Below, in pieces: positions 676-16,377 of a stretch of DNA of 19,945 bases (positions are counted from its first letter, which is position 1; the number at the start of each line of letters is the position of its first letter). Made by a program: the position numbers and the translations under genes. The notes under the pieces are model-generated. The model had not been told where the DNA came from. It saw only the letters and a list, made by a program, of their open reading frames with translations, and searched no databases. The stretch covers positions 1-19,945 of the forward strand of contig JAKSOY010000063.1 in assembly GCA_024405255.1 (NCBI GenBank), read 5' to 3'. The stretch comes from Kiritimatiellia bacterium. Lineage in GTDB: Bacteria > Verrucomicrobiota > Kiritimatiellia > RFP12 > UBA1067.

Positions 676-3105
676 TCAAGGCGTCGAACGATCTTTCGAC
701 CCGTCCGATTTCGCCTCGGCCGCAGCCGCCTTCGCAGCGGCGATCTCGGCAAGTGTCTCCATCACTTCATCCGATGCCGGCAGCAGCTTCTGCGCCTTTT
801 GGGCATTCACTGTCGCCGCCTCGAAATTTCCCTGCTGCATCTGCGCGAGCGCCAGGTTGTTGAGCACCGCCGGCTCGTTGGGCTTGCGCACCAGACACCG
901 CATCAGCGCCTCTTCCGCCCGCGTCCACTGCGCCTGCGCGAACGCATACATGCCGAGCGCGAAATTGGCATCCGGATTATCAGGATCCGTCTCGACGAGA
1001 ATCGTCGCGTAACGACTCGCCAATGCGAAATCGGCCCGCAGCAACGCCAGCTGCAACCCCTCGCGCGGGGTGACCTGCCGCAACGAAACGGCCCGCCGCT
1101 TTTCCGCCTTCTTGACGAGCGCCTTCAAGTCGGCGTTTTTCTCGTCCAGCCGATCGGCCAGTCCGCTTTCCGCCTTCGCCCTCTCCTTGTCGCCCGCATG
1201 GTCGGCCTGCTTGGCCCGTTCACGCGCCAGGCAAGCCAAGCGCCACTGCATCAACGTAAAGACCTTCTTCGACACCGGCGGAATCGCCGAATCGATCTGT
1301 CCCTTTTCATAGAGCGCCAGAACACGCTCCGCCAACGCGTCCGCCGCAGCCGCTCCCTCCTTGCAGGCGGCCTCCGACATGCCCGGTCGCATCAACGTAC
1401 CCGACACCGGCGGCACTTTCTCGCCATCCCGCAGCCACTGGGAAAACCCGAGCATCAGCGCGCTCTTCTTCAGGCGCTCGGGACGATCCCGCTTCCACGT
1501 GCGAAGCGCCGTACCGACACCGCTTTCAAGAACCTGTCGGTCCTCTTTGTCCTCTGCGGCGCGAAGGCGCAGATTCTTTTCAGAGGACGAGTTCCCCGCC
1601 AGCAACGACAACGTGACGAGTTTCTTGCCCTTTTCGGCAGCCCCCAATTCGAGCCGCGTATCAAATGCACCATCGGTGAAGAGATAGCGCGCATCGCCGC
1701 ACTCCTTCAGGACTTCCGCAACATAGTCGTTCACCACGCCCAGCATCGCGCGCGCCTTCGTCTGCGTCCGCCCCGGCAGGGACCCCACGAGCATCACAAG
1801 ACAGAACCCCCCCAGAACGACGAGACCGCGAATGCTTGTCGGCATGTTCACATCGGCTTCCGGCAGCTGATCTTCCTCCTGCGCGCGGAAGCTCGCCAGC
1901 TTCACTTGGTTGCGGCAGCAGGCCTCCGTTCCCAGGACAACGAGGAAGTATCCGACCACGAGCGCGGACAGCAGCAGACACACCTGGAGAATGTAGAACG
2001 AGCGAACCACCGTGAGCGGACTCCACGTCCAGAACCAGATCGGCGATACGAACGAAAGCTGCGTGAACGACACGACGCCCGAAACGAATAACGCACCACC
2101 GATGTGATACGGCAAGAACTGCTCTTCATCCACAGCACGCGGCAGCATGATGCTCGCCACGCCAAACGGCAAAACGCACAGTACAAACGCCAGCACCCAT
2201 CCCAAGCTGCCGGCCGTTTCACTGAACACCGCCCACCACCGCAGGCCATAGGCCAACGGCAGACCGTTCGTCAACGTCGCACCGCCCCCCATCTTGAGGA
2301 AGCTCCAGCAGTTGAGTGCAAGTCCAACCGCAAGACCGACGCCCCAGAGAAAGGAAAGCATCCACTTCGCCGACTGCGCGGTGATCAGCTCCAAAAGCGG
2401 GATCCGTTCGCCCAACGCATCATGCCGCAACGCAACATGGTAGAGAAGCCAGCACACGAGCAGCAGAATGACACCCAACGGCGTCTCGGCGGCCAACACG
2501 CCGAGAAGGAACATCGACACGTAGGCGCACAGAAGCGTGCCATTGAGCATGAAGAGCATGAACGGCACCAGGGCAAGAACCGTGAGAAGGAGCAGCAACC
2601 CTTCGGACGAAAAGCACTGCGCCGTCTGCCAGGCCGGATCGGAACAGGCGAACAGAACCGCGCCAACCGCCGAACCGACGCGCTGGACGAGATAGCGGCG
2701 CGAGGAAAAACGCAACCGTCCCCGCACCAACATACCAATGACGGTCCTGAACAACAGGTACACGGCACCCGCCGTACATCCCGCGCAGACGGGGCCCAAA
2801 TGCTTGAGAAGGCTCACGCCGGAGGAAACACCTCCGAGGAAAAGCGCGTGCGCGATCGCGCGCCAAAAACCGGGGAAAACATCCACCGGCGGCCGAAGCC
2901 CTGCGGCAACAGCCGTCGAATCCCAGGCGACGGGCGAAAGCCCGGGCAGGGCGAAAACCGTCACTCCAATGAACACGAGCACTGCCAGGGAAGCCGCCAC
3001 CAGCCAGTCGACGAACGTCAGGTGTTCGTCCGCCAGGAACCTCTTCTGCTGCTGGTTGCCATCGCCTTCATCGTAGCCAAGATCGTCATCGTACGTACCG
3101 CGCAT
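676..3105 (-). CDS. Polytopic membrane protein, DUF2723/GT-C-like, with C-terminal TPR repeats
   Basis: The protein has 809 residues. A short acidic cytoplasmic N-terminus is followed by many hydrophobic segments between about residues 33 and 442. A soluble, Lys/Glu-rich C-terminal half follows, with tandem TPR-like repeats at about 709-790 (motifs such as ANFALGMYAFAQAQWTRAEE and LNNLALAQMQQGNFEAA). Features recalling DUF2723 (GT-C-fold glycosyltransferase-like proteins of Bacteroidota and PVC bacteria) are an early WDS after the first membrane helix (61-63), a tryptophan-containing loop before SEGLLLL (about 159-172), and LFTDGAFDT (475-483), which resembles the family's post-membrane motif. 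The match is by eye and divergent, so enzymatic activity is not claimed. A GAGGT ribosome-binding site precedes the ATG. The gene starts 18 bases after the small exported protein gene and probably shares its transcript. Confidence 0.75.
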   Translation of the reverse strand: MRGTYDDDLGYDEGDGNQQQKRFLADEHLTFVDWLVAASLAVLVFIGVTVFALPGLSPVAWDSTAVAAGLRPPVDVFPGFWRAIAHALFLGGVSSGVSLLKHLGPVCAGCTAGAVYLLFRTVIGMLVRGRLRFSSRRYLVQRVGSAVGAVLFACSDPAWQTAQCFSSEGLLLLLTVLALVPFMLFMLNGTLLCAYVSMFLLGVLAAETPLGVILLLVCWLLYHVALRHDALGERIPLLELITAQSAKWMLSFLWGVGLAVGLALNCWSFLKMGGGATLTNGLPLAYGLRWWAVFSETAGSLGWVLAFVLCVLPFGVASIMLPRAVDEEQFLPYHIGGALFVSGVVSFTQLSFVSPIWFWTWSPLTVVRSFYILQVCLLLSALVVGYFLVVLGTEACCRNQVKLASFRAQEEDQLPEADVNMPTSIRGLVVLGGFCLVMLVGSLPGRTQTKARAMLGVVNDYVAEVLKECGDARYLFTDGAFDTRLELGAAEKGKKLVTLSLLAGNSSSEKNLRLRAAEDKEDRQVLESGVGTALRTWKRDRPERLKKSALMLGFSQWLRDGEKVPPVSGTLMRPGMSEAACKEGAAAADALAERVLALYEKGQIDSAIPPVSKKVFTLMQWRLACLARERAKQADHAGDKERAKAESGLADRLDEKNADLKALVKKAEKRRAVSLRQVTPREGLQLALLRADFALASRYATILVETDPDNPDANFALGMYAFAQAQWTRAEEALMRCLVRKPNEPAVLNNLALAQMQQGNFEAATVNAQKAQKLLPASDEVMETLAEIAAAKAAAAEAKSDGSKDRSTP

Positions 3106-3605: not shown

Positions 3606-5252
3606 TTACGCCCTTTTCTCTCCGCCAAAGCGATCGGCATCTTTCATATTCGGTTCCTTCGGCGAGAACACATAGTCTTTCCCCGGCAGAATCGCGTTCA
3701 GCACAATCCCCATCAGCGCACCGACCGCCAGGCCCGAGAGCGTCAGTTTGATGGCGCCGATCGTGAAATTGATCCCTTTCGCCTCGGAGAAGCTGATGCC
3801 GAGCGCACACACGATCGTCACCGCGCAGATGAGCATGTTGCGCGGTTTCGAGAAGTCGACCTGGTGTTCAACGAGATTGCGCACGCCGACGGCCGAGATC
3901 ATGCCGTACAGGACGAACGACACGCCGCCTACCGTCGCAGGCGGCAACGTGGCGATCACCGCCGCGAACTTCGGACAGAACGACAGCAGAATCGCAATCA
4001 CGGCCGCGATGCGGATCACGCGCGGATCGTACACCTTCGAAAGCGACAGCACACCCGTGTTCTCGCCATACGTCGTATTCGCCGGCGCACCGAAGAGCGC
4101 TGCCAACGAGGTCGCCAGACCATCGCCGAGCATCGTGCGGTGAAGTCCCGGATTCTCGAAGAAGTTGCGGTTCACCGTCGAACCGATGGCCGAGATGTCG
4201 CCGACATGCTCCATCAGCGTCGCAGCGCAAAGCGGCACCACGATCGCAATCGCACTGAGGATGCGTCCCCAATTGTCACCTGGATTGCTGAAGATCGCAA
4301 ACACGGTTTCGTTCATCTGGAACGGCATACCGAACCACGGCGCCGAGGCGACCTTGCTGAAGTCGATGACCGCGTTCGACACACCGCAGCCATTCCCGAG
4401 GATCGCCGCCGTCGCATACGACACGAGCACGCCGACCAGAATCGGAATGATGCGGATCATCCCCTTGCCGAAACAGGACGCCACCAGCACGCCCACGATT
4501 CCCGCCAATGCCACCGGCCAGCAGCTGGAGGCGCTGCCCACGGCAACCGGGGACAGGACAAGGCCGATGCCGATCACGATCGGTCCTGTCACCACCGGCG
4601 GGAAGAATCGCATCACACGCTGCACACCGCACGCCTTCACGATGGCCGAGACAACGAGATAGACGAGTCCCGCCACCACGACGCCCGCCGAAGCGTAGGC
4701 CAGCAGCTGCGTCTTCGAGAGACCCTCCCACACGCCGCCCTTCATCGCCGTCAACGCGAAATAGCCCGGCAGAAACGCAAAGGAGGAACCGAGGAATGCC
4801 GGCACCTTCAGCTTTGTGAGGAAGTGGAAGAGCAATGTGCCCAGACCCGCAAACAGCAGCGTCGCCGAAATGCTCAATCCCGTCAGAATCGGCACCAGCA
4901 CCGTCGCACCGAACATCGCGAACAGATGCTGCACGCCCAACACGCCCATTTTCGGCAAACCGAGAACCCGCGCATCATAGATGGCGTCGGCGCCGCCGAA
5001 CTTCTGCTCGAGTCGTTCGATGGCTGCGGCGAGCATCCGCGATTCATCGGGATCGACGACGCCATCTTCGGCGATGTCGCCGAGCAATCGGACGAATACC
5101 GCGATGTCATCGTCCGACTTCACCAGAGGCGTGGCGAGACCGATCAACATCTTGACTTCGTCGAGATCAACCCGACCGTCGGCAAAAACGAACTTCCGTA
5201 CAGCTCGAATCAGCTGTGCGAACGACTTTTTCTCTTCTGAATTCAATGACAT
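3606..5252 (-). CDS. Uracil/xanthine permease (NCS2, UraA type) with N-terminal TerB-like module
   Basis: The protein has 548 residues, roughly 100 more than a usual UraA-type permease. Residues about 100-530 form the NCS2 nucleobase:cation symporter core: VQHLFAMFGATVLVPIL at the start, the MEHVGDI motif, and LHRTMLGDGLATSLAALFG followed by NTTYGENTGV, all strongly conserved in the UraA/PyrP branch. It should import uracil or a related base across the inner membrane; whether uracil or xanthine is preferred cannot be told. The extra N-terminus (about 10-82) is a helical module with two half-repeats, DGRVDLDEVKML (25-36) and DGVVDPDESRML (63-74). Homologous modules begin the purine permease and Apt encoded just upstream. 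The ATG at 5252 has a good AAGGAG seven bases before it and lies 26 bases after the apt stop. It is the last gene of the upp-azgA-apt-uraA operon. Confidence 0.92.
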   Translation of the reverse strand: MSLNSEEKKSFAQLIRAVRKFVFADGRVDLDEVKMLIGLATPLVKSDDDIAVFVRLLGDIAEDGVVDPDESRMLAAAIERLEQKFGGADAIYDARVLGLPKMGVLGVQHLFAMFGATVLVPILTGLSISATLLFAGLGTLLFHFLTKLKVPAFLGSSFAFLPGYFALTAMKGGVWEGLSKTQLLAYASAGVVVAGLVYLVVSAIVKACGVQRVMRFFPPVVTGPIVIGIGLVLSPVAVGSASSCWPVALAGIVGVLVASCFGKGMIRIIPILVGVLVSYATAAILGNGCGVSNAVIDFSKVASAPWFGMPFQMNETVFAIFSNPGDNWGRILSAIAIVVPLCAATLMEHVGDISAIGSTVNRNFFENPGLHRTMLGDGLATSLAALFGAPANTTYGENTGVLSLSKVYDPRVIRIAAVIAILLSFCPKFAAVIATLPPATVGGVSFVLYGMISAVGVRNLVEHQVDFSKPRNMLICAVTIVCALGISFSEAKGINFTIGAIKLTLSGLAVGALMGIVLNAILPGKDYVFSPKEPNMKDADRFGGEKRA

Positions 5253-5278
5253 GTCATTTCTCCTTGAAATTTTTCCTT

Positions 5279-6058
5279 TTACTTGCCGGGATACTTGATG
5301 AGCGAGACGACGTCGAACATCTTGAGCGCCTGTTCGCGCGCCGCGAATCCCTCTAGCTCAATGGGGAAGATCATTTTGACGACCGTTCCGCCCAACCGCT
5401 TGACGAGGCGCGCGGCGGCCGCAGCGGTCCCGCCCGTCGCAAGCAGATCGTCCACGATCACGACGCGCTCGCCCGGCACGATCGCATCTTCATGCATGTT
5501 CAACGTCGCCGTTCCGTACTCGAGTTCGTAGTCTTCGCAGATGCACGCGCGCGGCAGCTTGCCGGGCTTGCGGATCGGCACAAAGGCACACTGCAGACGC
5601 GAAGCCAGCGCCGAACCGAAGATGAACCCGCGCGACTCCGGCGCCGCCACCACGTCGACCGACACACCCGCAAGGGCCTTCTCCATCAAGTCGATGGCCA
5701 GCTTGAAACCATCGGCATTGTCGAGAATGCCCGTCACGTCGCGGAACAGGATTCCGGGACGCGGGAAATCCGGGATCACGCGCACATACTCTTCAAGCGC
5801 CAGACTGCCGTGCGAGATGTCATCGAGCATGGCGAGGATGCGCTGCGAATTCTCCGGCGAAACCGTCCCCAGCGTACGCACCTCGCGGAGCAGCTTGTCC
5901 AACAGACGAGCCGCCGTCACGCCCTTCTCGACAAACGGACGAATGCACCGCAGCAGCAACGCCGTTTCACCCAGGTCGACGACCCCATCCGCCTCGATGT
6001 CCTTGCGCACGGTTTCGATTCCGCGCGCAAAGGCCCCTCTGATCTTCACATCGCCCAT
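5279..6058 (-). CDS. apt: Adenine phosphoribosyltransferase with N-terminal TerB-like module
   Basis: The protein has 259 residues; stand-alone Apt is usually about 170-180. The C-terminal enzyme begins near residue 88 with the classic YVRVIPDFPRPGILFRDVT and carries the PRPP-binding loop VVIVDDLLATGGT at 199-211. It converts adenine and PRPP to AMP and pyrophosphate in the cytoplasm. Residues about 6-82 form an extra helical module with ADGVVDLGE at 23-31 and a degenerate second copy around 62-70; it is homologous to the N-termini of the two flanking permeases. The start chosen is the ATG at 6058, 11 bases after the azgA stop. The frame is open further upstream but only through azgA coding sequence. 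No strong ribosome-binding site is seen, so translational coupling to azgA is likely. Confidence 0.93.
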   Translation of the reverse strand: MGDVKIRGAFARGIETVRKDIEADGVVDLGETALLLRCIRPFVEKGVTAARLLDKLLREVRTLGTVSPENSQRILAMLDDISHGSLALEEYVRVIPDFPRPGILFRDVTGILDNADGFKLAIDLMEKALAGVSVDVVAAPESRGFIFGSALASRLQCAFVPIRKPGKLPRACICEDYELEYGTATLNMHEDAIVPGERVVIVDDLLATGGTAAAAARLVKRLGGTVVKMIFPIELEGFAAREQALKMFDVVSLIKYPGK

Positions 6059-6069
6059 GGCACCATCGC

Positions 6070-7755
6070 TTACATCAATGCATACTTCGCAATGAAGAGC
6101 ACCGAGAGGATATACATGATCCAATGGATCTTCTTCGCCTGACCGGTGATCAGATTGACGAACGTATAGGAAATGACACCCCACATGATACCGTCGGAAA
6201 TCGAATAGGCGAACGGCATGGCGGCAATCGTGAGAAACGCCGGAATCGATTCGGACGGATCCGTGAAGTCGATCTCGACCGCCGAGGACAACATCATATA
6301 GCCCACGACGATGAGCGCCGGCGCCGTGGCAAAGGACGGGATCGCCAGAAACACCGGCGCGAAGATGAGGGCGAGCGCAAAGAGTCCCGCCGAAGCAACC
6401 GCCGTCAGACCCGTGCGTCCACCCGCCATCACGCCCGAGGCGGATTCAACGTAGGTCGTAGTCGTGGAGGTACCCATCACCGCACCGACCGAGGTCGCAA
6501 TCGCATCCGCACACAAGGCGCCCGAGATGCGCGGCAGCTTGCCTTCCTTCGTGAGGAAGCCGCCCTTCATCGACACGCCGATGAGCGTGCCAAGCGTATC
6601 GAAGAGGTCCACGAAGAAGAACGCGAACATCACGACGAAGAAGTCAAGCGAGGTCACGAGCGACCAGCCCGAGCCCACGACCTTCTTGTCCACCGTATGC
6701 GTCCAGCCGTCGGCATTGAAAATCGCGCCGACCGTCTGGCCGAACTCCTTGAACGTGCCTGCGAGATCGTCGAACTTGAAGGACGGATAGAGCGAGAAGC
6801 ACTTCACGGCCGGATCCGGAATGTAGAGCCCCGTCGCCTGGCAGAGCATGCCAAGGCACCAGGTCGCAAAGATGCCGATCAGAATCGCGCCCTTGAACTT
6901 CTTGACGAGCAGGACGGCCGTGATGACCGTACCGACAAGCGCCAGCAGCGCCGCAATGCCCTGCGAGTGGAAGGCCGCCTTCTTGAAGCTGATCATCTGC
7001 ACGAGCGTCGCATCGTTGTTCACGATGACACCGGCCGTCTGCAACGCAATGAAGCAGATGAAGAGACCGATGCCGGCCGCCACGGCTTTCTTCAGGGTAA
7101 AAGGAATACAGTTGAAGATCGCTTCACGCACCGGCGTCAACGAAAGCGCGAGGAAGATGAGACCTTCCACGAACACCGCCAACAGCGCGAACTGCCAGCT
7201 ATAGCCCATGCCGAAGCAGACCGTGAACGTGAGGAACGCATTGAGACCCATACCCGGCGCCAACACGAACGGATAGTTCGACATGAACGCCATCAGCAGC
7301 GTCCCCACCACGGCGGCCAGCGCGGTCGCCACGAACACGCCCCCGCGCGGCATCCCCGCCATCGAGAGGAGGTTCGGGTTCACGGCCAGGATGTACGCCA
7401 TCGTCATGAACGTGGTAATGCCCGCCACCACTTCCGTCTTCACCGTCGTGCGATTGCGGCCGAGATGGAAGAGACGGTTGAGCAGCGTCGGCTTCTCGTC
7501 GACCAGCTCGTCCGCCTGCGTCAACCACGCAAGGAAGGCGCCCACGCGCACGGACTCGTCAGGCGTAATGACACCGTCTTCCAGCACCTGGTCAAGCAAC
7601 TTGACGAATTCCGCCATCTCCGCGGATTTCCCCGCGAACGGCGCGGCAAATTCACGGAGGGTCAACGCCTCCGCCTTGTCGATACGCGCGTCCTCAAGTA
7701 CGCCCGTACTCAGCTTCTTCAACGCCGACAGAATGTTGGGATCTTCGATCTTCAT
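6070..7755 (-). CDS. Purine permease (NCS2, AzgA/GhxP/PbuG type) with N-terminal TerB-like module
   Basis: The protein has 561 residues against about 430-480 for usual AzgA-type permeases. The permease core starts near residue 100 with TEVVAGITTFMTMAYILAVN and contains LAPGMGLNAFLTF, DLFDTLGTL and GTSTTTTYVESASGV, all hallmarks of the hypoxanthine/guanine/adenine branch. It should import purine bases by cation symport. Residues about 5-80 are the same helical module found in Apt and the UraA-type permease: EDARIDKAE (21-29, degenerate) and EDGVITPDES (59-68). The ATG at 7755 has AAGGA upstream and lies 20 bases after the upp stop. The exact purine substrate is not decided by the sequence. Confidence 0.92.
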   Translation of the reverse strand: MKIEDPNILSALKKLSTGVLEDARIDKAEALTLREFAAPFAGKSAEMAEFVKLLDQVLEDGVITPDESVRVGAFLAWLTQADELVDEKPTLLNRLFHLGRNRTTVKTEVVAGITTFMTMAYILAVNPNLLSMAGMPRGGVFVATALAAVVGTLLMAFMSNYPFVLAPGMGLNAFLTFTVCFGMGYSWQFALLAVFVEGLIFLALSLTPVREAIFNCIPFTLKKAVAAGIGLFICFIALQTAGVIVNNDATLVQMISFKKAAFHSQGIAALLALVGTVITAVLLVKKFKGAILIGIFATWCLGMLCQATGLYIPDPAVKCFSLYPSFKFDDLAGTFKEFGQTVGAIFNADGWTHTVDKKVVGSGWSLVTSLDFFVVMFAFFFVDLFDTLGTLIGVSMKGGFLTKEGKLPRISGALCADAIATSVGAVMGTSTTTTYVESASGVMAGGRTGLTAVASAGLFALALIFAPVFLAIPSFATAPALIVVGYMMLSSAVEIDFTDPSESIPAFLTIAAMPFAYSISDGIMWGVISYTFVNLITGQAKKIHWIMYILSVLFIAKYALM

Positions 7756-7775: not shown

Positions 7776-8396
7776 TCAAAGCGTACCAAAAATGCGGTCG
7801 CCCGCATCGCCCAGACCGGGCACGATGTAATAGTGCGAATTGAGCCGCTCGTCCTTCGCGGCCGTGAACACCGGCACATCCGGATGATGCTTCTCGAAAT
7901 TCGCGACACCCTCAGGGGCGGAAACGAGATTCAGGAAAATGATCTTCGTGTATCCGAGTTTCTTGAGCTGCGTCACGGCATCGACCGCGCTTCCGCCCGT
8001 CGCAAACATCGGGTCGATGACGATCGCAAGCGCGTCGCCTTTCGCCGGCGGAACCTTCGCATAATAGGGAATCGGCTCGGCCGTCTCTTCGTTGCGCTGC
8101 ATGCCCAGCACGCCCACTTTCGCGTACGGCAGCACATGCAGCATCGCATCGAGCATGCCCATGCCGGCACGCAGAATCGGCACCAGCACGATATCCTCGG
8201 CGACCTTCCGTCCTGTCGTCTTGGAGACCGGCGTCTGAATCGGCACTTCGACCGTCTTCAGCTCTTTGAGCGCCTCGTACGCGAGGAATGTCGTAATCTC
8301 GGAAACCAGTTCGCGAAAGAGCTTCGGCTGGGTGGACTGATCACGCAAATAGGTCATACGGTGATCGACAAGCGGATGATGAAGAACGGTCGTCAT
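7776..8396 (-). CDS. upp: Uracil phosphoribosyltransferase
   Basis: The protein has 206 residues, the normal length. It starts with MTTVLHHPLVDHRMTYLRD and carries VPILRAGMGML (72-82), the PRPP loop IDPMFATGGSA (127-137; the family usually has Leu where Phe132-equivalent stands, IDPMLATGGS) and the uracil-binding end GLGDAGDRIFGT. It converts uracil and PRPP to UMP. The ATG at 8396 gives the canonical N-terminus; the 32-codon in-frame extension upstream crosses the terminator of the previous gene and was not used. It is the first gene of the salvage operon and the only one of the four without the N-terminal TerB-like module. Neither a strong ribosome-binding site nor a clear sigma-70 promoter is visible in the 50 bases upstream. 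Confidence 0.95.
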   Translation of the reverse strand: MTTVLHHPLVDHRMTYLRDQSTQPKLFRELVSEITTFLAYEALKELKTVEVPIQTPVSKTTGRKVAEDIVLVPILRAGMGMLDAMLHVLPYAKVGVLGMQRNEETAEPIPYYAKVPPAKGDALAIVIDPMFATGGSAVDAVTQLKKLGYTKIIFLNLVSAPEGVANFEKHHPDVPVFTAAKDERLNSHYYIVPGLGDAGDRIFGTL

Positions 8397-14907: not shown

Positions 14908-16377
14908 TTACATGCGCTCGCGGTACTCGGCGCGAATGACATCGTCCGCACGCGCTAGGACTTCGTTCAGTGTACCGGTCTTCACCCGGTGCCAAAGTTT
15001 CAAGTCGTCCAGATCCGCGACCGTGACGCCGTGTCCATAGTCGTCGAAGAACGGATCGATATTCCGCGGCACGCCCATATCGATGAAGAGCACGTTGCGG
15101 TCCGCAACGGCCGTCGACATTTCGGGCGTCACGACAGGCTTCGACGAATCGACGGCAGACAAAACGATGTCAGCCGTCTCAAGCGCCGAAGGAATCGACG
15201 TCATCGGAATCAAAGCCGGCTTCACCGCCGCGTTGGCAAACACGGGGTCCGACAAATCGGGCCGATGCACATGGTAGGCCCAGGTCACCCGGCAGCTGAA
15301 CTTCATCAGCGCCTCCACGGCGCCACGGCCCACCATCCCCGTGCCGATCATCAGCACGTTCGTCTTGGTATCGACATCGCCGTGCACGCTCAGATAGCGG
15401 ACAGCAACTTGATCGATTTCGGCCACGCGCAGCAAGCCTTCAACGGCATGGCGCACGACCTTCGACACGCGCAGCACTTCCGCGCCGGTAAACTGAATCG
15501 CCCCCGCGCTCCACTTGTTCGCCTCGGCTTCGGCCAGCGCGTCCTTGAGCTGCGAGACGATGTGGAATTCGCCCAAAAGCGACGACTCGAGTCCGCTCGC
15601 CACGCGCACGAGATGGCGGAACGCATCGAAACCGCGCAACTCGAACCGCTCGGACGGCAGCAACTTGTCGAGTCCGGTCAGACGCCGCAACACAGACGCG
15701 ACAAGCGGATCGCGCGACGCGACTACGACAAGTTCCACGCGGTTGCACGTGTTGAGAATGAAAAACTCGCGAACACCTTTCACACGCGTCAGCAATTCAC
15801 CGAGTACGGCACGCTCTTCGGCGGGCAGGTGATACGGCGCACGTTTGCGGCTCGGCAACAGAGCATCGCTGGTTCCGATGATCAACAACTCGAGATCGCT
15901 GCGTTCACGGAGGCGGGAAACGATTTCGTTCTTCACATCCCGCGCCGACGCGCAGCTTTGTCCGCTCGTCGAAACGGCAATCGTGAAGTCGCCGACATGC
16001 GCGGAGGCCGGGGTCGTAAAATCGCCGTCGCTCCAGTTCATGTCCGAGCAGCAACACGGCACGCGAACCGCACGCGCGTCATCCAGCACCGCACGATTCA
16101 CGTGCTTGTCGTCCGTACAGGCGAATACCAGCAGGTGCCCTGCCACATCGCCAACCACGTATTCACGCTTCGTCCAGAGGATGCGTCCCTCCTGGGCAAG
16201 CGTCTGCAATTCATCGACCGCGTCAGGACAAATCAGCTCCACCGCCGCACCGGCCTCGAGCAGGCCGCGCGTCTTGCGCAAACCCACGCGTCCGCCGCCG
16301 ACGACCAGCACCTTGCGCTCATCAATAATCAGGTTCAGCGGAATCGTCTGCCGAATCGGTCTACCTTCTCTATGCAT
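14908..16377 (-). CDS. hemA: Fused precorrin-2 dehydrogenase (Met8/CysG-N) and glutamyl-tRNA reductase
   Basis: The protein has 489 residues. Residues 1-160 are a Met8p/CysG N-terminal type NAD-dependent domain: VLVVGGGRVGLRK (23-35), a conserved Asp at 112 in the position of the catalytic residue, and VSTSGQSC (135-142). It would oxidise precorrin-2 to sirohydrochlorin. Residues about 163-489 are glutamyl-tRNA reductase: NTCNRVEL with catalytic C211 (209-216), HLVRVASGLESSLLGE (255-270), the NADPH loop IGTGMVGRG (344-352) and FIDMGVPRNIDP (431-442). It converts Glu-tRNA to glutamate-1-semialdehyde, the first step of tetrapyrrole synthesis. The protein ends only about 47 residues after that motif, so the long C-terminal dimerisation domain of normal GluTR appears absent. 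The start at 16377 has no strong ribosome-binding site and lies 13 bases after queF. Confidence 0.88.
   Translation of the reverse strand: MHREGRPIRQTIPLNLIIDERKVLVVGGGRVGLRKTRGLLEAGAAVELICPDAVDELQTLAQEGRILWTKREYVVGDVAGHLLVFACTDDKHVNRAVLDDARAVRVPCCCSDMNWSDGDFTTPASAHVGDFTIAVSTSGQSCASARDVKNEIVSRLRERSDLELLIIGTSDALLPSRKRAPYHLPAEERAVLGELLTRVKGVREFFILNTCNRVELVVVASRDPLVASVLRRLTGLDKLLPSERFELRGFDAFRHLVRVASGLESSLLGEFHIVSQLKDALAEAEANKWSAGAIQFTGAEVLRVSKVVRHAVEGLLRVAEIDQVAVRYLSVHGDVDTKTNVLMIGTGMVGRGAVEALMKFSCRVTWAYHVHRPDLSDPVFANAAVKPALIPMTSIPSALETADIVLSAVDSSKPVVTPEMSTAVADRNVLFIDMGVPRNIDPFFDDYGHGVTVADLDDLKLWHRVKTGTLNEVLARADDVIRAEYRERM

Follow-up and report, generated by a model that had tools for sequence, protein, structure and literature searches.

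What would make two membrane permeases and a soluble enzyme of one operon begin with the same kind of segment? This question is raised by a stretch of 19,945 nucleotides (referred to as the window) from a Kiritimatiellia bacterium (order RFP12; contig JAKSOY010000063.1 of assembly GCA_024405255.1). Its minus strand carries an operon in the order upp (start near 8396), an azgA-type gene (7755-6070), apt (6058-5279), and a uraA-type gene (5252-3606). A preliminary description of the window proposed that the AzgA-type permease, adenine phosphoribosyltransferase (Apt), and the UraA-type permease share an N-terminal module devoted to nucleobase salvage, which either lets them meet at the membrane or senses a common ligand. 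The N-termini of the three proteins, of about 80 residues each, are homologous. Judged from its hosts, the module appears to be a lineage-specific accessory domain that is wider than a nucleobase metabolon.

The three N-termini are homologous

The module covers residues 1 to 84 of the AzgA-type permease (7504-7755), residues 1 to 82 of Apt (5813-6058), and residues 1 to 86 of the UraA-type permease (4995-5252), all on the minus strand. All three are supported by alignment with shuffled controls, by profile-profile comparison, and by a hidden Markov model (HMM) of the module, complemented by predicted structures for Apt and UraA. Local BLOSUM62 alignment gave scores of 91 (UraA/Apt), 105 (UraA/AzgA), and 62 (Apt/AzgA), with maxima of 55, 58, and 57 for the shuffled sequences; none of 5000 shuffles reached any real score, and the z scores were 12.7, 14.8, and 7.7, respectively. 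The start of Upp, used as a negative control, gave z scores of 2.5, 0.6, and 0.1 against the three modules, its scores being reached by 141, 1254, and 2308 of the 5000 shuffles. The alignable segment lies at the place first proposed. Comparison of profiles built separately for each N-terminus from relatives led to the same outcome, with probabilities of 98.8% for UraA/AzgA, 98.1% for UraA/Apt, and 98.4% for AzgA/Apt (E values of 8e-17 to 8e-14). Against the same profiles, Upp starts gave 0.37% (UraA), 0.09% (AzgA), and 0.07% (Apt). When the module HMM was run over the open reading frames (ORFs) of the window of at least 45 amino acids, only AzgA, Apt, and UraA were above the inclusion threshold.

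The two DG signature blocks said to be kept in all three proteins are both exact only in UraA; the first block of AzgA reads DARIDKAE, and the second block of Apt reads GTVSPEN. The segment is no fixed part of the host families, as had been supposed, given that the examples of same-order relatives without the module begin shortly before the core.

A predicted helical bundle with two conserved turns

In agreement with the helical segment first described, structure prediction for UraA and Apt gave a four-helix bundle. The AlphaFold2 model of the UraA module (50 sequences; mean predicted local distance difference test score [pLDDT], 83) has helices at residues 5-22, 30-43, 48-62, and 68-86. The N-terminus of the full Apt model, where residue 1 is protein residue 2 (9 sequences; mean pLDDT, 72.6), has helices in similar places, at 3-23, 28-43, 47-62, and 67-82. 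Residues 84-105 of that model form a linker between module and enzyme that, with a pLDDT of <50, is perhaps flexible.

The modules have two turns with the spacing D-G-x-V-x-x-x-E that show almost no variation, and these account for 9 of the 12 columns with the highest conservation among 50 modules. These turns could form a binding site, or they could merely be helix caps. In the same 50 modules, the EF-hand pattern, which has acidic residues at loop positions 1, 3, 5, and 12, was not found, since those at positions 1 and 3 are mostly absent from both turns: position 1 is mostly F, S, or A and position 3 is L or F in the first turn, while in the second turn position 1 is D in 22 of 50 modules and position 3 is L, A, or R. 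Position 5 is D, and position 12 is E, in all 50 modules for the first turn and in 48 for the second. The mean net charge of the modules is -4.7 for AzgA, -5.9 for UraA, and -2.0 for Apt, with a value of 0 for the Apt module of the window.

Relation to known domains

No Pfam or NCBIfam model matched the module above its cut-off (for members other than the first, E values only were available). The resemblance to TerB-like domains that had been pointed out was not established as kinship: Pfam TerB gave 14.2 bits for the UraA module and 16.5 bits for a stand-alone module, against a cut-off of 24.4, and was matched by 5 of 18 modules at an E value of ≤1 (best, 0.0038). Against a profile built from 21 same-order TerB domains, only 22 columns aligned, at 36%, and no TerB chain was recognised among the fold matches shown, which were generic bundles. 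What the modules have in common with TerB (PF05099) and DUF533 is a short helix-DGxxxxxE-helix stretch below threshold; they differ in that neither model scores above its cut-off for the modules with bits shown and in that the alignment with TerB is confined to those 22 columns.

The nearest known relative of the module is the phrog_3989 domain, which was matched by 18/18 modules at an E value of ≤0.1 (best, 3e-5), the Apt module of the window matching weakly by itself (E value of 0.044). Comparison of the module with phrog_3989 by hhalign gave 96.8% over 68 columns (E value of 2e-10), the phrog_3989 profile being built from 4 sequences. The two are homologous two-turn helical domains. They differ in their setting, since in the Pseudomonas phages phi1 and Lodos the phrog_3989 domain is N-terminal in small proteins annotated as BRCT or DNA ligase; there it precedes a region that is BRCT-like by annotation (no BRCT by Pfam), and it is not attached to transporters. 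The window hosts, i.e., the permeases and Apt, have no BRCT among their Pfam matches. Distant domains on exonuclease-like and stand-alone proteins of Kiritimatiellae group with the phrog_3989 domain (98.3%). Distant copies were seen on a phrog_3989-type protein (L089), on another small protein (L093), and on proteins of about 350 amino acids that, judged by eye, look membrane anchored (L138, L090, and L140).

The module is found on hosts beyond base salvage

A contig scan with the AzgA module returned 46 loci, among them 28 AzgA genes (L001-L028) and one UraA gene (L029) that carry the module; the remaining 17 match mostly via the conserved start of the permease core. The module-bearing loci with a group in their title are metagenome-assembled genomes (MAGs) of Kiritimatiellae, Verrucomicrobia, or Lentisphaerae. 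The module HMM, run over the ORFs of the 46 loci, also found the module on Apt, UraA, a xanthine-type permease, and a GlnQ-type ABC ATPase, where it is C-terminal. When 10 carrier genomes were searched with a profile (42 matches at an E value of ≤0.01), a stand-alone copy and one at the end of an NhaC-type antiporter, again C-terminal, came to light. For Apt, a homologue search had yielded one cluster only, probably because it depends on shared words; later searches gave more.

Counted over L001-L161 at an E value of ≤0.1, where one gene may contribute two segments, distinct module segments numbered 31 on AzgA, 31 on UraA, 11 on NhaC, 7 on Apt, 6 on xanthine-type permeases, 6 on GlnQ-type ATPases, 2 on exonuclease-like proteins, and 23 on other hosts. 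These 23 include a HIT protein with a C-terminal module (L124), the stand-alone copy, pieces of AzgA (L028) and NhaC (L136), both cut by contig ends, the distant group of small and exonuclease-like proteins, and a few weak matches, possibly due to chance. The host names rest on PF03553 for the NhaC type (165 bits), PF01230 for HIT (27.9 bits), a GlnQ score of 315 bits that is under the equivalog cut-off of 379, and pbuX scores of 410 and 398 bits, just under 414. Sequence matches place the module within a single lineage of Kiritimatiellae from the gut, where it occupies the termini of several transport proteins that are unrelated to one another and of a few soluble enzymes.

This host range does not support the idea that the module serves nucleobase salvage specifically: a protein of a Na+/H+ antiporter family and an amino-acid-type ABC ATPase also end in it, and it is found on 0/20 of the uracil-trapping Upp proteins and on only 8/20 Apt proteins.

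Several unusual copies were also observed. The stand-alone module in genome G001 (L080, 10512-10844) is of the Apt type, and no apt gene was found in that genome, which is perhaps incomplete. In G341 (L121/L135), a 297-amino-acid Apt has a partial xanthine-like module piece as well as an Apt-like one. NhaC-type proteins of G349 (L295) and G005 (L088) have a truncated or shortened C-terminal module, and the GlnQ-type module frames on contigs C79 and C284 of G400 contain one inner TGA (assembly error, decay, or recoding).

Regularity within carrier genomes

The regularity of the module was followed in 25 genomes that were chosen for carrying it and are mutually related; those with titles are MAGs. 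PF00860 identified 52 permease genes, 49 of which have the module, N-terminal in 48 and C-terminal in one, the UraA gene of G394. The other three are the UraA genes of G010 and G389, each adjoining a xanthine-type permease with the module, and the AzgA gene of G349, which is seemingly split by contig ends. The strong NhaC paralogue has the module in 17/20 genomes, and among the other three, that of G349 ends in an apparent truncated remnant. None of 20 distinct Upp genes has the module, including those of loci whose UraA bears it. Of 20 Apt genes, all 8 with the module lie directly downstream of azgA, compared to 1 of the 12 without it (G350); Fisher's test gave a P value of 7e-5 with related genomes counted as independent.

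The UraA gene of G394 (L131, 2202-3881) has no N-terminal module, and its C-terminal one is closest to that of xanthine-type permeases (48% identity to L123). The gene order of L007 is azgA, uraA, xanthine-type, and apt; therefore, the simplest reading is that the core of a xanthine-type permease was deleted and its module became fused to UraA. This protein has kept a module, at the opposite end.

Distribution and history

At the level of the order, 50/161 genomes match at an E value of ≤1e-4, weak distant types included, and at the level of the class, 42/345 match at an E value of ≤1e-8. Four of these 42 (G440, G183, G496, and G346) have a single match, on an ORF of 223 to 384 amino acids outside the transport and salvage hosts. 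In a sample of the phylum, 10/288 genomes match at an E value of ≤1e-4, strong matches being found only in G001, G002, G006, and G007. Among 155 genomes of the order searched, 60 bear NCS2 permeases; 31 have a module match beside the permease, and 29 have none listed. The latter include G411-G418, whose permeases, examined in all but G414, have no module; G414 lies outside the module-profile check, and G298 and G387 hold fragments.

In a tree of the modules, based on few columns, sequences mostly cluster by host. On the trees of the permease cores, the module label needs 4 changes for AzgA (48 rows, 29 with the module) and 5 changes for UraA (46 rows, 33 with the module), in both cases fewer than in any of 500 shuffles. 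These trees are without the 14 AzgA and 3 UraA rows cut by locus ends and, except for L033 and L041, without the distant L030-L046 rows. Because so few label changes are needed, the history of the module fits few gains with later losses. The AzgA, UraA, xanthine-type, and NhaC genes of G377 are all without the module. The AzgA core of this genome pairs, with support of 100/100, with that of the carrier G344, which has the module on AzgA, Apt, UraA, the xanthine permease, and HIT.

The operon and other genes of the window

The remaining parts of the operon, all on the minus strand, were assigned by domain models. The core of the AzgA-type NCS2 permease (6070-7503) matches PF00860 with 112.9 bits (cut-off, 27) and is 81% identical to the core of L001, a Kiritimatiellia MAG; its name was taken from its relatives, and NCBIfam gave no match to this permease up to an E value of 1. 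The Apt core (5279-5812) matches TIGR01090 with 206.7 bits (cut-off, 185.85); the start was set at the ATG at 6058, giving 259 amino acids, as the longer ORF would overlap azgA. The UraA-type NCS2 permease core (3606-4994) matches PF00860 with 274.5 bits (cut-off, 27). The upp gene for uracil phosphoribosyltransferase (7776-8396), which has no module, matches TIGR01091 with 257.3 bits (cut-off, 208.35); its likely start is at 8396, and the ORF extends to 8492. Elsewhere in the window are genes for a 489-amino-acid protein that joins a siroheme-synthase-like NAD-binding domain to glutamyl-tRNA reductase (14908-16377) and for an 809-amino-acid protein with many membrane segments, as judged by eye, and C-terminal TPR (676-3105).

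What the module may do

The reading that we favour, with somewhat less than even confidence, is that the module is a shared cytosolic control domain. Both ends of NCS2 permeases are cytosolic, as are ABC ATPases, Apt, and HIT proteins, and the C-terminus of the NhaC-type antiporter is assumed to be so as well; all copies would then lie in the cytosol. Each copy may act as a receptor tethered to its host, with all copies reading the same cue in the cytosol, which could be a cation, a small ligand, or a protein partner. This cue would raise or lower transport by the host and, on Apt, would act likewise on the initial step of salvage; uptake and use would then shift together.

This reading is preferred because the hosts extend beyond base salvage, because Upp has no module, and because the module of the ATPase and the antiporter is C-terminal. 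The C-terminal site on an ABC ATPase or an antiporter is a known location of control domains in other systems. The antiporter CpaA, for instance, is presented as bearing RCK_C in an excerpt of PMC10243994. The homology across hosts and the clean negative controls also speak for a control domain, as do the retention of the module whatever its position (UraA of G394) and its regularity on NCS2 permeases (49/52) and NhaC (17/20). The same is true of G377, which is module-less on four hosts at once, with its sister in the AzgA tree, G344, bearing the module on five, and of the concentration of the best conserved columns in the two turns. Of the two roles put forward in the preliminary description, common-ligand sensing agrees better with the wider host range than docking does.

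Other observations weigh against a control domain. The turns (DG and then [DT]xxE) lend themselves to a reading as helix caps that serve folding alone, and the fold matches of the module models are generic bundles, none of which points to a function. The concerted absence comes from one genome, G377, and two carriers, G010 and G389, are mixed. Moreover, 12/20 Apt proteins are without the module, and only one genome has a HIT protein that bears it.

It is possible, with a lower probability than a control domain, that the module is a docking tag of a metabolon. At the membrane, modules would interact with one another, or with a single scaffold, and thereby join Apt to the permeases; imported bases would be turned into nucleotides at once, and other transporters would be clustered by the same tag. 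A tag would suit the presence of the module on soluble Apt and HIT as well as on membrane proteins, the end swap in G394, the free-standing module of L080, and the low-confidence linker of the Apt model. The position of every module-bearing apt directly after azgA also fits, although this statistic ignores the kinship of the genomes. However, Upp, the would-be uracil trap, never has the module, even where the UraA of its locus bears it, and the NhaC and GlnQ-type hosts lie outside base salvage.

We consider it unlikely that the module is a structural decoration that aids folding, insertion, or stability of its hosts in this lineage and carries no signal. Its conserved residues agree with helix caps, which is our own reading of them, and relatives live without it, as in the 29 of 60 NCS2-bearing genomes of the order with none listed. 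In contrast, its hosts have unrelated folds, with soluble enzymes and an ATPase among them, and nearly all permeases of the chosen carrier genomes have it.

Chance similarity is hardly credible, and neither is an artefact, whether of assembly or of a DNA segment copied recently. Apt/AzgA is by itself the weakest pair, and the UraA/Apt module DNA scores 29, just over the best of 200 shuffles (27). However, the scores of the other two DNA pairs, 22 and 16, stay below their shuffle maxima of 27 and 31; the shuffles, profile comparisons, and negative controls contradict such an explanation; and the module is present in many MAGs, mostly in host-specific clades. Recent DNA copying was rejected on the grounds of little or no DNA similarity among the three modules. 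As for a selfish coding insert, the copies are placed at protein ends, again mostly in host-specific clades.

Comparison with known systems and significance

To our knowledge, no dedicated module has been described for adenine uptake coupled to a phosphoribosyltransferase, although a role of membrane-located Apt in the uptake of adenine was reportedly considered by Hochstadt-Ozer and Stadtman in 1971, whose work is listed among the references of PMC8170892. A literature search at listing level found no earlier description of the module or of such a system, in line with the initial impression. It seems that this common handle on unrelated uptake proteins and salvage enzymes is undescribed.

Two known systems work in a similar way, as a likeness of operation and not of membership. 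SPX, in the excerpt of PMC7381174, is a small domain located in the cytosol; transporters and enzymes that handle one nutrient carry it, and it reads a common signal. It differs in being eukaryotic and in having a basic binding patch, whereas the modules described here are mostly acidic (as net charge only) and have no SPX match in Pfam. In the excerpt of PMC10243994, the RCK_C, CBS, and USP domains on potassium and compatible-solute transporters read one signal, cyclic di-AMP (c-di-AMP), and pyruvate carboxylase is also treated as a c-di-AMP receptor. The likeness is that of one signal to many transporters and enzymes; there, however, several unrelated domain families are used, and here a single one. 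Neither SPX nor RCK_C, CBS, or USP is among the 16 Pfam families matched by 18 modules up to an E value of 1.

A more far-reaching version, which we regard as doubtful, is that of a lineage-wide handle through which a single signal or scaffold would command purine, pyrimidine, and amino-acid uptake together with sodium/proton exchange and would couple AzgA to Apt physically (vectorial phosphoribosylation), making the module a bacterial counterpart of SPX.

A module with no Pfam or NCBIfam model above cut-off links, in one bacterial lineage, five Pfam host families: NCS2 permeases (three branches), NhaC-type antiporters, ABC ATPases, phosphoribosyltransferases, and HIT proteins. Should it prove to be a docking domain, the long-standing question of whether permease and phosphoribosyltransferase form a unit could be tested directly, since nature offers such pairs both with and without the module. 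Should it be a control domain instead, the signal coordinating the uptake of nutrients in gut Kiritimatiellae could be searched for with the purified 80-residue module as bait.

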